Positions 13,871 through 18,252 of a stretch of DNA of 42,686 nt are shown in pieces. Origin of the DNA: an uncultured Clostridia bacterium (GTDB lineage Bacteria; Bacillota; Clostridia; Christensenellales; UBA1242); contig CANREZ010000009.1 of NCBI GenBank assembly GCA_947629745.1, forward strand, positions 1 through 42,686. The letters are read 5' to 3'. Numbering within the stretch: position 1 is the stretch's first letter; each line of letters opens with the position of its first letter. The notes beneath the pieces are model-generated. The model made no database searches. It was not told where the DNA came from and saw only the letters and a program-made list of their open reading frames with translations. The position numbers were made by a program, and so were the translations under genes.

Positions 13871-15001
13871 CTACTCATCTAGATCATCAAATGTACTATC
13901 CATTGTGAATAGATCGTCAAAGCCCTCAGGTTTTTCTACTTCCTCTTTTGGCTCATCAAACTTTGGCATAGCACTCTCGGCTTTTAGATCAATCTTCCAA
14001 TCAGTGAGGCGGACAGCTAGACGCACATTGTGTCCATTCTTGCCAATAGCAAGTGACAACTTGTTGTCAGGCACGACCACGATGCTAGTCTTGTCAATTG
14101 GGTTTAACTCCACTCTAGATACTGGTGCTGGACTCATAGCACGTGTTATATACACTGCTGGGTCATCACTCCACTCGATGACATCAATCTTTTCGCCACC
14201 GACTTCATTTATCACTTCATTGATCCTAACACCGCGGTTGCCAATGCATGCACCTACTGCGTCAAGATTTGGGTCATTGCTACTTACTGCCACTTTGGTC
14301 CTAAGTCCTGCTTCCCTCACAATGGACTTTATCTCAACAGTGCCATTAGCAATCTCTGGGATCTCTAGTTCAAGCAATTTCTTCACTAATCCCACATTTG
14401 TCCTAGACAATTGGACATATGGCATATCATAGCCATCTCTTACTGTACGCACATATACTTTTAGTCTAGTATTTGGCAGATATGCCTCGCCTGGGATCTG
14501 GTCACGAGGACTTATCACTCCCTCGATTTGGCCCAAGCCCATATCACAGTATACGTTGCCGGAATCAGTACGCTTCACAACCACTGTCATGAGTGCATTT
14601 TGCTTGTCAGATACCTCAGCATACATTGATCCACGCTCAGCATCACGGAGTCTCTGCATGATCACTTGCTTTGCGGTCTGGGCTGCGATCCTGCCAAAGG
14701 ACTTAGGATTCTCCTCATGCATCACAAGGTCGCCTACTTTGTAACTCTTCTTGATAGTCTTTGCCTCAGCTAGGCTCATTTCCTTATCTGGGTCCTTCAC
14801 CTCATCGACAACTGTCTTGTATGAGTAGACCTTGATAGTATGCCTATCAGGATTTAGCCTAACCTCAGCGTTCTTTGCCTCCCCAATATGTTTCTTGTAT
14901 GCACTAGTGAGGGCGGATTGTAGAGCTTTTATCAAAAACTCCTTGTCTATTCCGCGTGCTGCAAGTTCGTCTAATGCTTGGAAAAAATCTTTATTAACCA
15001 T
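13871..15001 (-). CDS. nusA: Transcription termination/antitermination factor NusA
   Basis: RNA polymerase-binding factor that promotes pausing and modulates termination. 376 residues, as in B. subtilis (371), without the extra C-terminal repeats of E. coli. Domains in order: an N-terminal RNAP-binding domain (about 1-125; FFQALDELAARGIDKEFLI), S1 domain (about 133-200), KH1 with VGACIGNRGVRINEV and KH2 with SLAIGKNGHNVRLAVRLT, then an acidic tail. It is co-transcribed with rimP (21-base gap). A terminator in the rimP leader offers a route for autoregulation. Confidence 0.97.
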   Translation of the reverse strand: MVNKDFFQALDELAARGIDKEFLIKALQSALTSAYKKHIGEAKNAEVRLNPDRHTIKVYSYKTVVDEVKDPDKEMSLAEAKTIKKSYKVGDLVMHEENPKSFGRIAAQTAKQVIMQRLRDAERGSMYAEVSDKQNALMTVVVKRTDSGNVYCDMGLGQIEGVISPRDQIPGEAYLPNTRLKVYVRTVRDGYDMPYVQLSRTNVGLVKKLLELEIPEIANGTVEIKSIVREAGLRTKVAVSSNDPNLDAVGACIGNRGVRINEVINEVGGEKIDVIEWSDDPAVYITRAMSPAPVSRVELNPIDKTSIVVVPDNKLSLAIGKNGHNVRLAVRLTDWKIDLKAESAMPKFDEPKEEVEKPEGFDDLFTMDSTFDDLDE

Positions 15002-15022: not shown

Positions 15023-15490
15023 TTAAAATTTTATCACTGGTTCTACGAGCGCTATATCTGCTCTATTTATCTTCACTTCACCCGAATCTTTTGAAATGCA
15101 AATGTCTTTGTCCGAATATGACTTTAGTACACCGCAATATTCCTTGCACTTATTCTTATCGGGAGCGTAAAGCTTCACACGGACTTCCGACCCAATATTG
15201 CGCTTGAAATCACGGTCGACCTTTAGCGGTCGATCAAGTCCACAGGACATGACATCCAAGTGATATGATGCCCCACCGGTCGGATCCAATTTGTCTAGCG
15301 GCTCATCCAGGAGCCTTGCTACCTTCTCGCATGCATCGAGGTCCACTCCACCATCACGGTCAATAGTCACCACTAAGTGATATCCGTCAGGTCTCTTCTC
15401 GTATTCTAGGTCCACTAGATCTACGCCGATGCTAGTACATGCTTGCTTTACTAGATCCATACAAGCAGTCACAACTACTTTGCTACTCAT
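15023..15490 (-). CDS. rimP: Ribosome maturation factor RimP
   Basis: 30S subunit assembly factor. 155 residues with the two-domain RimP layout: an N-terminal alpha/beta domain (VDLVDLEYEKRPDGYHLVVTID, given as VDLEYEKRPDG and LVVTIDRDGGVDLDACEKVA) with the family pattern YHLDVMSCGLDRPLK in the middle, and a C-terminal SH3-like domain. The ATG at 15490 follows GGAGG; an ATG further upstream lacks a signal. It starts a new transcription unit and heads the nusA-infB operon. Confidence 0.94.
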   Translation of the reverse strand: MSSKVVVTACMDLVKQACTSIGVDLVDLEYEKRPDGYHLVVTIDRDGGVDLDACEKVARLLDEPLDKLDPTGGASYHLDVMSCGLDRPLKVDRDFKRNIGSEVRVKLYAPDKNKCKEYCGVLKSYSDKDICISKDSGEVKINRADIALVEPVIKF

Positions 15491-15505
15491 ATTACCTCCT
15501 ATAAT

Positions 15506-15541
15506 CAAAAACTAAGAGTGGGAGGCCTTCCCACTCTTAGT
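15506..15541 (-). terminator. Strong intrinsic terminator in the rimP-nusA leader
   Basis: Perfect 13-bp stem (ACTAAGAGTGGGA at 15511-15523 with 15529-15541), five-base loop GGCCT, then five T on the minus strand. It ends about six bases before the rimP ribosome binding site. It closes the frr-to-polC unit, and because a promoter lies just upstream at 15562-15590 it is also inside the rimP leader, where it could act as an attenuator. Confidence 0.85.
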
Positions 15542-15630: not shown

Positions 15631-17193
15631 CTAAATTTCAAGATGATCAGCTAATTTGATCAGCACATCGGCTGTAGCAATGGTGTCAAATAGTGCTCGG
15701 TGAGCGTTGTCCAGTGTCACACCTAATTTCTCTGCAATAGTTATGAGCTTGTAGTTCCTAGCACCCACTACATTCGCACGCGCTAAGTTGAATACATCAA
15801 CCGACTTGTTACTTAGTTCGTATCTACACTTCTTGCAAACACGTCTAAGGAACTTGTCATCAAAATTTGTGTTATTGTATCCCGCTATTATGCAACCATT
15901 GACAAAGCGCATAAAATCGGGCAAAACTTTTTCTATCGGCAGTTTATCCGCGACCATTTCGTTTGTGATATTATTCACTTTAGTCACTTCTTCTGGGATC
16001 GCTTTTCCTGGATTGATAAGTGTTGAAAAAGTCTCCGAAATTCTGCCACTATGTACCTTCACCGCACCTATCTCTATTATATTATCCACATCTGGATTTA
16101 GTCCTGTAGTCTCCAAGTCATACACCACTATGTCGTTATTTGCAAGTACTGGGCTTACGCTCGGTGTCTCGAATATATTGAATAGATCAGCTTGTTGCTT
16201 ATTCTCATATGGTTCAGGTTTCACGAATAAATATTTATCTCTTATCTCGTGATAACCACTCTCCTCTTCTCTTTCGATCTTAGTCGGTTTACACAAAGAT
16301 ATGTCGTGTACCTTGACACAATAATTACCCCTATAGATATCAAGTACACCTAGCACTGCTACTGTCATGCCATCTTTTAGTGCAGGCAGTTTCTTCTCAT
16401 TACTCTTAGTCTCAAATATTGAGCAGTGAATGTATCCTGTATCATCATTTAGGCTAAATGTGTAAAATTTCTTTTCGCCCTTCTCGCCTTTTTCATCTTT
16501 CTTTGGTTTAAAGGAACGCACCGCAAGGTAAGATATTTTGCCGCAAAGTAGCACCTTTTCCATATTCTCGTCTATACAGTTGATAGCAAGAGCGGCACCT
16601 GTTATCTTATTGCCAACTAAAGTCTTCACATCGTCTAGATGATAATATTGCTTATCATCACCCATGCTATCATCATCCATGAGTTCTTCTTGAATTTTAA
16701 TAGATGAATCGGATAGTAGTTTCGGGTCAACACGAAGGATTATATCGAAGTCACCAAAGAATATCTTATCTAGTTCAGATACTAGGTTTGTCACAAAATT
16801 TCGCTCATTTAGATATTTGATATACGCATCTGATGAGTAGAGAGTAATAGTCGCATGATGATTTACTACATCTATATCTATCCAGTTATTAGATAGTGTG
16901 GCAAAGAATGCAGTGAAATTATTTTGAAGATACTTTGTCACAAAATTTTTGATGACATCAGAGTCAAAATACGACTTCTTGATCACAAGCTTAATCTCAA
17001 TCTTTGGGTCATCGACGTATTCTCGGGTTATCTCGTAGAGCTTATTTTTCATATCCACAGTGAATAGGAAATCTTCGGGATAGACCATCACGACTTCGAG
17101 TGTATTTAATTTATCATTAAAAGTAGCGCGCACAAACTTACAACGCTTGTATGCATCACTTCGTTTATTCACAAAATCAAAATATTCTTCCAT
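15631..17193 (-). CDS. PolC-like protein reduced to N-terminal, OB and 3'-5' exonuclease domains
   Basis: 520 residues in the position where Firmicutes carry the replicative polymerase gene polC (after rseP, before rimP). It starts like PolC: N-terminal domains (about 1-205), an OB-fold (about 212-303), then a DEDDh exonuclease (about 353-520) with intact catalytic residues D359 and E361 (YDLETTG), D445 (NNTNFD), H498 and D503 (NAHRALFD). Full PolC is about 1,430 residues with the exonuclease inserted in a PHP domain and the polymerase behind it. Here neither PHP half nor polymerase is present, and the stop follows directly after the exonuclease fold. The next 120 bases hold a promoter and terminator, not remnants. 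No good ribosome binding site precedes the ATG; coupling to the rseP stop 16 bases upstream is likely. Polymerase activity is not predicted; proofreading or repair exonuclease activity is. Confidence 0.85.
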   Translation of the reverse strand: MEEYFDFVNKRSDAYKRCKFVRATFNDKLNTLEVVMVYPEDFLFTVDMKNKLYEITREYVDDPKIEIKLVIKKSYFDSDVIKNFVTKYLQNNFTAFFATLSNNWIDIDVVNHHATITLYSSDAYIKYLNERNFVTNLVSELDKIFFGDFDIILRVDPKLLSDSSIKIQEELMDDDSMGDDKQYYHLDDVKTLVGNKITGAALAINCIDENMEKVLLCGKISYLAVRSFKPKKDEKGEKGEKKFYTFSLNDDTGYIHCSIFETKSNEKKLPALKDGMTVAVLGVLDIYRGNYCVKVHDISLCKPTKIEREEESGYHEIRDKYLFVKPEPYENKQQADLFNIFETPSVSPVLANNDIVVYDLETTGLNPDVDNIIEIGAVKVHSGRISETFSTLINPGKAIPEEVTKVNNITNEMVADKLPIEKVLPDFMRFVNGCIIAGYNNTNFDDKFLRRVCKKCRYELSNKSVDVFNLARANVVGARNYKLITIAEKLGVTLDNAHRALFDTIATADVLIKLADHLEI

Positions 17194-17208: not shown

Positions 17209-18252
17209 TCATCTCCTTAATAGATGTATCAAATCCACCACTATCACAAAAGCAAATAGTATGAATAACCCTATCGTGTGGACGTATCCTTCGACCTTGC
17301 GGCTTACTGGTTTGCCACGAATCCACTCTATTAGCACGAAGACCATTCTAGCCCCATCTAGGGACGGGAATGGGAGAAGATTGAATGTGGCAAGGTTCAC
17401 CCCAATTAGCACGAATAATTGCACTAACATTGCAGGAGAGATAGCCACCACTTGGGCTATTGCGTCAATTGTGGTAATAGGCCCGCCAACGGCCGAAATG
17501 CCCAGTCTGCCTGTAATGAGTGACCATAGTATCTCAAGGCAATCATAAGCGATCCTACCCGAATATGGCACGGCATGGAGTAGTGCCCCACCAAAGCCAT
17601 AGGTAATAGCCTTGGACTGGAAACCTATTTCATATGTCTTTGACCCCGGCTCGGTCTCAACTTTCCTCACTACAACATCCACATACTGCCCGTCACGCTC
17701 CACACCTAGGTGGATATCTGTATCCACTGGACAATTGGATACTAGGTAACTCATATTGAATACTGCCGTCACATCGTGACCATCGACAGATTTTATGATA
17801 TCGCCCTCACATAGCTCCATATTGTAATCATTAGGTTTGATTGCTGTGACAACTCGAGTGCCAGGGCCCGAGATCATAAGGGCAGCAACAGCTACTATGC
17901 AAGCGGACAAAAAGTTGAAAAATGCGCCCATAAATAAGACTATTAGTCTCTTCCATGGGGCTTGATTATTGAATGCTCCTGGAGAGGAATTGCCATCCTC
18001 ATCTTCTCCCTCAAACGCGCAATATCCGCCAAGTGGGATTAGGCGAATGGAAAATTTCTCACCGTTCTTCTTAGTCTTAGAGAAAATTGCTTTGCCGAAG
18101 CCCACGCTAAATTCGTTAATCTTGAACTTCAACAATTTCCCTGCGGTGTAATGACCGAATTCGTGGATCATTATCATCACAAGCAAAAGGGCAATGGCTA
18201 TGAGTATATATCCCGTAGTCGATAGCACTTGCAACCAATTAATATTACCCAT
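17209..18252 (-). CDS. rseP: RIP metalloprotease RseP / site-2 protease
   Basis: Intramembrane zinc metalloprotease that cuts anti-sigma factors and signal-peptide remnants. 347 residues. The active-site HEFGH (residues 30-34) is in the first membrane helix, a PDZ domain occupies about 120-200 (GDIIKSVDGHDV), and the second active-site motif LLPFPSLDGARM lies near 290-302, followed by the final membrane helices. It has a good ribosome binding site (AAAGGAGGG). Usual neighbours dxr (upstream) and ispG (downstream) are missing. Confidence 0.96.
   Translation of the reverse strand: MGNINWLQVLSTTGYILIAIALLLVMIMIHEFGHYTAGKLLKFKINEFSVGFGKAIFSKTKKNGEKFSIRLIPLGGYCAFEGEDEDGNSSPGAFNNQAPWKRLIVLFMGAFFNFLSACIVAVAALMISGPGTRVVTAIKPNDYNMELCEGDIIKSVDGHDVTAVFNMSYLVSNCPVDTDIHLGVERDGQYVDVVVRKVETEPGSKTYEIGFQSKAITYGFGGALLHAVPYSGRIAYDCLEILWSLITGRLGISAVGGPITTIDAIAQVVAISPAMLVQLFVLIGVNLATFNLLPFPSLDGARMVFVLIEWIRGKPVSRKVEGYVHTIGLFILFAFVIVVDLIHLLRR

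Follow-up and report, generated by a model that had tools for sequence, protein, structure and literature searches.

A short PolC without polymerase at the polC locus in about half of the sampled families of one Clostridia order

Introduction

Replication in Firmicutes is described as relying on PolC plus DnaE. Bacteria in general are described as having one of three combinations of alpha subunits (PMC12926913). PolC, with solved structures from Geobacillus (3f2b), E. faecium (9qpc) and Thermotoga (2p1j), is the closest described system to the gene reported here. Both have a homologous N-terminal domain (NTD), OB domain and DEDDh exonuclease and both lie at the same locus, but the short form is without the PHP, polymerase and HhH parts and the C-terminal clamp motif of PolC, and has a new linker with a QxxLF motif. 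For the PolC NTD, binding to the clamp loader has been proposed (PMC3919608). Some PolCs of Clostridia and Negativicutes do not have the exonuclease insertion and likewise represent the modular loss of one PolC activity (PMC3919608). In short PolC the loss is the reverse, with the polymerase gone and the exonuclease kept.

A DEDDh exonuclease separate from a DnaE-type polymerase is also known from the epsilon subunit (DnaQ) of E. coli Pol III, which binds the clamp via a canonical motif adjoining its catalytic domain (PMC3642679). In contrast to epsilon, short PolC is of PolC descent, carries NTD and OB, and has its motif before the exonuclease, not after it. DnaE1-only systems with PHP and/or DnaQ proofreading (PMC12926913) likewise have one replicative C-family polymerase with an active-type PHP. 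The short-PolC clade differs from these in sitting within Clostridia that have PolC plus DnaE1 and in keeping a PolC-derived exonuclease. This combination, DnaE only with a PolC-derived exonuclease, is not described in the part of that survey considered here, and a full-text literature search, with subscription papers outside its reach, found no description of short PolC.

In this study, we analyse a short polC gene from an uncultured Clostridia bacterium, located in a stretch of 42,686 nucleotides (contig CANREZ010000009.1 of assembly GCA_947629745.1; hereafter the window), and its counterparts in related genomes.

Results

Anatomy of the short polC gene

The gene lies on the minus strand of the window in the order cdsA, rseP, short polC, rimP, nusA, ylxR, L7Ae-like gene, infB, and its reading frame opens with ATG (Table 1). 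An initial annotation had described 520 residues between rseP and rimP ending right after a DEDDh exonuclease, and the reading frame, Pfam and synteny agree with this. Pfam places an OB fold at residues 232-299 and RNase_T at 356-511 (E 3e-35). The exonuclease extends to about residue 517, 3 residues short of the stop codon, and rimP starts about 120 bp further on. PHP and polymerase are missing from the gene and from its locus, as had been claimed. The five catalytic residues named at the outset (D359, E361, D445, H498, D503) are all present and are invariant in 52 of 52 aligned relatives, a divergent set from about 13 families.

Table 1. Features of the short polC locus in the window
Feature	Coordinates	Strand	Size or evidence
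Short polC gene: NTD + OB + linker with clamp-type motif + DEDDh exonuclease	15631..17193	-	520 aa
rseP, marker upstream of polC locus	17209..18252	-	
rimP, marker downstream of polC locus	15023..15508	-	
nusA, beyond rimP	13871..15001	-	
PolC-type N-terminal domain, residues 1-160	16714..17193	-	profile match E 4e-10; pLDDT ~85
OB domain, residues 190-302	16288..16626	-	PF01336 E 8e-8; profile match; Foldseek to 3f2b
Linker of ~50 aa, residues 303-353, replacing first PHP half	16135..16287	-	predicted disordered
QADLF, clamp-binding-type pentapeptide, residues 334-338	16180..16194	-	motif conservation in 52 relatives
DEDDh exonuclease domain, residues 354-517, active site intact	15643..16134	-	
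Terminator-like hairpin between short polC and rimP, 13-bp stem, T-rich tail	15511..15541	-	consensus match only

The closest full-length protein family is PolC, of whose model the span 420-588, corresponding to the exonuclease, is matched; the best piece of the PolC model on the short gene reaches 145-164 bits as compared to a cut-off of 873 bits. The nearest solved structure is the exonuclease of Thermotoga PolC (2p1j, E 2e-31), and epsilon follows far behind (6e-8). Judged by these matches, with PolC far ahead of epsilon, the gene is not descended from the bacterial DnaQ subunit family. Retention of the PolC N-terminal and OB domains, also asserted in the initial annotation, is borne out by profile-profile comparison with full-length PolCs of the same order (N-terminal 170 aa, E 4e-10; OB region, E 6e-17). 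In an AlphaFold model the N-terminal domain forms two compact alpha-beta subdomains, the OB fold matches Geobacillus PolC 3f2b (Foldseek), and the linker, at about 303-353, is disordered; as the input consisted of three sequences, with a mean pLDDT of 58.8 and the exonuclease unfolded, the model was used for conclusions on NTD and OB only. Of the promoter plus terminator that had been placed behind the gene, the strong terminator-like hairpin, directly ahead of rimP, stands and the promoter does not: promoter-like matches around short polC are at chance level (6 found, 7.9 expected).

A clamp-type motif in the linker

In full-length PolCs of the order, the stretch from OB to exonuclease is the first PHP half of about 95 aa, at the place where the short form has its linker, and all 12 examined end in Qxx[LIF][FL] (e.g. 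QVSLF, QMSLF). The proposal that the short protein had kept a clamp-side N-terminus did not hold, for the clamp motif of the order's full-length PolC is found at the very C-terminal end and disappeared together with the polymerase. The linker of the short form carries Q-x-x-[LI]-F, with the glutamine conserved in 51 and the phenylalanine in 44 of the 52 relatives. The relaxed motif is found in 48 of 52 linkers, versus 2.6 in shuffled linkers (at most 8 in 1000 shuffles), and strict QxxLF in 34 of 52, versus 0.3 expected. Outside the motif, the linkers are 15-21% identical; among short forms, domain identity is 47% for the exonuclease, 28% for OB and 19% for the NTD. By sequence comparison, QxxLF is a new appearance in the linker that replaces the first PHP half, with the C-terminal motif of PolC lost. 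We infer from this motif that short PolC binds the clamp. Motifs of the QxxLF type are found in repair proteins too.

Polymerases of the genome

The genome containing the window amounts to 973 kb in 19 contigs and is 95% complete. Its sole C-family polymerase, encoded on contig 4, is a 1188-aa DnaE with a PHP domain of its own. Searches of this 95% complete genome with PF07733, PF02811 and full PolC models found no PolC polymerase sequence, the only matches being DnaE and one unrelated PHP protein. The PHP metal site of this DnaE is intact (HHDHEHCDH, a pattern classed as active PHP in PMC12926913) and the protein has a clamp-type motif of its own, QYSLF. The PHP active site of DnaE is intact in every member of the short-PolC clade with a fully covered site. 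The short polC gene encodes the only RNase_T-type exonuclease detected in the window genome. A full-length polC elsewhere, with the short gene a non-conserved duplicate, had been considered at the outset; none is found in the genome, and the short gene is conserved.

Distribution in the order

A search with the window protein finds a match in each of the 40 nearest relatives. Across 297 sampled genomes of the order, the matches listed include short-layout proteins of about 495-610 aa in more than 100 genomes. The short-PolC group comprises 16 families (f1, f3, f6, f8, f9, f10, f14, f15, f17, f19, f20, f21, f25, f29, f30, f32) with 191 of the 297 sampled genomes and one C-family polymerase, DnaE. 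Typically the short form there has about 500-560 aa and is located at the polC locus; sequences of members from most, though not all, of these families were inspected for the layout. The remaining 17 families (106 genomes) have PolC plus DnaE, and the protein query matches frames of about 1400-1480 aa.

Family counts of PF07733, tallied by hand, follow the same division. In the 16 short-PolC families most genomes have one match; two or none occur occasionally, and a single fragmented genome has three. Nearly all genomes of the other families have at least two and usually three (DnaE plus PolC in two pieces), with eight exceptions among the 106, several of them incomplete genomes. The split PolC offered as one alternative in the initial annotation was rejected on this account, both for the window genome (95% completeness), with its one DnaE on another contig, and for the clade, where there is mainly one DnaE-type match. 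When the sample covers the whole class, frames of about 500-600 aa with long alignments are confined to this order among the matches listed; outside the order, the matches listed are either full-length PolCs (about 1300-1500 aa) or exonuclease domains standing alone.

Two observations stand beside this pattern. A 466-aa frame in one f30 genome (L138, G053) has NTD and active-type exonuclease with no recognisable OB between them. Five genomes of f11 (G138, G153, G179, G203, G273) have two or three PF07733 matches and no exonuclease-query match; perhaps they carry the known PolC form without exonuclease insertion.

Origin of the short form

The order cdsA-rseP-(extra gene in some)-polC-rimP-nusA is common to full-length and short loci, and because the gene order is the same at both, the short gene is a polC that underwent deletion, not a newly inserted gene. 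With E. coli as root, the DnaE tree unites the DnaEs of 16 short-PolC genomes in a single clade with full support, placed among the DnaEs of the order, and further short-clade DnaEs added later fall into the same clade. The exonucleases of 59 short forms constitute one clade apart from those of full-length PolCs (support 0.79). The simplest reading of the two trees is a single loss of the polymerase.

Horizontal replacement of DnaE was rejected for the 16 genomes compared, whose DnaEs cluster with those of the order itself. The DnaE motifs DFD[IV]DF/GRGSG[AV] were dropped as a marker of a sole replicase, some DnaEs of PolC-bearing families showing such motifs. One genome of the PolC-bearing family f11 (G062) has only one detected C-family polymerase; its sole exonuclease match is RNase_T in a 307-aa frame beside CRISPR-type repeats (L254 4412-5332), which looks like a Cas2-DEDDh fusion. 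This may be a second, so far unconfirmed, loss of PolC or an assembly gap.

Later erosion of the exonuclease

In three f1 genomes the protein ends after OB (frames of 217-343 aa) and the exonuclease is gone; two of the three are without any RNase_T domain in a genome-level domain search. After rseP, these loci (L095 3077-4105, L096 2518-3453, L097 1983-2633) contain only NTD-OB, or OB plus part of the NTD, and rimP and nusA were not seen near the genes within the stretches fetched. In f20, 14 of 16 genomes checked have a protein of about 550 aa with the catalytic residues replaced (for example HNI-T instead of DEDHD, among genomes with loci fetched; L196, L206, L208-L219, L221) and the glutamine of the linker mostly kept; two genomes of its genus g116 have intact catalytic residues. 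In f17, catalytic residues and linker glutamine are both gone in nearly all members sampled (L099, L197-L199, L202, L212, L223). In f20 the linker motif is weakened; in f17 it is lost.

Many of these genomes from the two families encode a separate DEDDh exonuclease of about 190-240 aa (L224-L236), and a few genomes whose short PolC is active (G025, G028) have such small exonucleases as well. As a lead, the separate protein of about 200 aa may substitute for the dead PolC exonuclease. The NTD-OB stretch was found in 29 of 29 short-clade genomes checked, less complete in two (G155, G004); the thirtieth genome of this check was G062 from the PolC-bearing family.

Discussion

The reading that we lean towards, and consider probable, is that short PolC is a clamp-tethered accessory or proofreading subunit working in trans with DnaE. 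This corresponds to the second alternative of the initial annotation, replication by DnaE with short polC as a stand-alone proofreading-type subunit, which gains support from the genome-wide and order-wide pattern. From sequence we infer its exonuclease activity, its partnership with DnaE and the role of its NTD-OB. In the common ancestor of the clade, the PHP and polymerase parts of PolC would have been deleted at the native locus and DnaE would have taken over the entire chromosome replication. The remaining fragment of NTD, OB and exonuclease would then have gained the QxxLF of the linker, restoring the clamp attachment lost with the C-terminus of PolC. Short PolC would thereby have reached a motif arrangement like that of epsilon from another starting point. 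Where its active site is intact, the DEDDh domain would act in trans to remove misincorporated 3' ends, in the manner of E. coli epsilon, and NTD-OB would make a contact within the replisome, with the clamp loader and/or the primer-template, which outlasts exonuclease loss. Against an accessory proofreader speaks the complete PHP active site of DnaE, with which a second proofreader would not be strictly needed; the same PHP can explain the later loss of the exonuclease in places.

Proofreading cannot be the universal function of short PolC, because the DEDDh residues are gone in nearly all sampled members of f17 and f20 and the exonuclease is missing in three f1 genomes. The persistence of NTD-OB where the exonuclease is inactive or lost points to a function of this part beyond proofreading, and the contact with the clamp loader put forward for the NTD of PolC (PMC3919608) is the obvious candidate. 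More tentatively, at somewhat under even confidence, the NTD-OB of PolC may have an indispensable replisome job independent of polymerase or nuclease, and the clade may keep it as a clamp-tethered partner of DnaE while repeatedly discarding or replacing the exonuclease.

An unlikely alternative is that the protein has been freed from the replisome and trims 3' ends as a clamp-bound repair or recombination nuclease, DnaE proofreading via its own PHP. The intact PHP site in all fully covered short-clade DnaEs would suit this, as would the fact that the exonuclease can be lost. However, the NTD, the proposed clamp-loader binder, is retained, and short PolC is near-universally kept in small genomes of 0.8-1.3 Mb; both fit a core replisome role better. 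Less likely still, NTD-OB would be a scaffold that connects clamp, clamp loader and DnaE or else acts on the primer end, with the exonuclease as a dispensable passenger. Its retention in the checked short-clade genomes, including those with deleted or inactive exonuclease, agrees with such a scaffold, but an active site invariant in 52 divergent sequences of about 13 families does not, nor does an exonuclease identity far above that of NTD and OB. We give almost no credence to a PHP and polymerase part encoded elsewhere, for which no supporting evidence was found and the domain models return nothing in the 95% complete genome beyond DnaE and the unrelated PHP protein, and just as little to a decaying pseudogene or assembly artefact: a reduced genome of about 1 Mb might invite decay, but the short form recurs across relatives and is conserved in many families with clean reading frames and an invariant active site, which upholds the original view that the gene is not in recent decay and rules out a frameshift or assembly error.

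Taken together, about half of the sampled families of one Clostridia order have lost the polymerase of PolC but retain its front half, apparently converted into an epsilon-like accessory with a clamp motif of its own. The clade is a natural experiment on which parts of PolC are dispensable: polymerase first, then exonuclease, NTD-OB last. Hereby the function of the PolC NTD becomes directly testable. It is further predicted that PolC inhibitors, ibezapolstat among them, would have no target in these bacteria.
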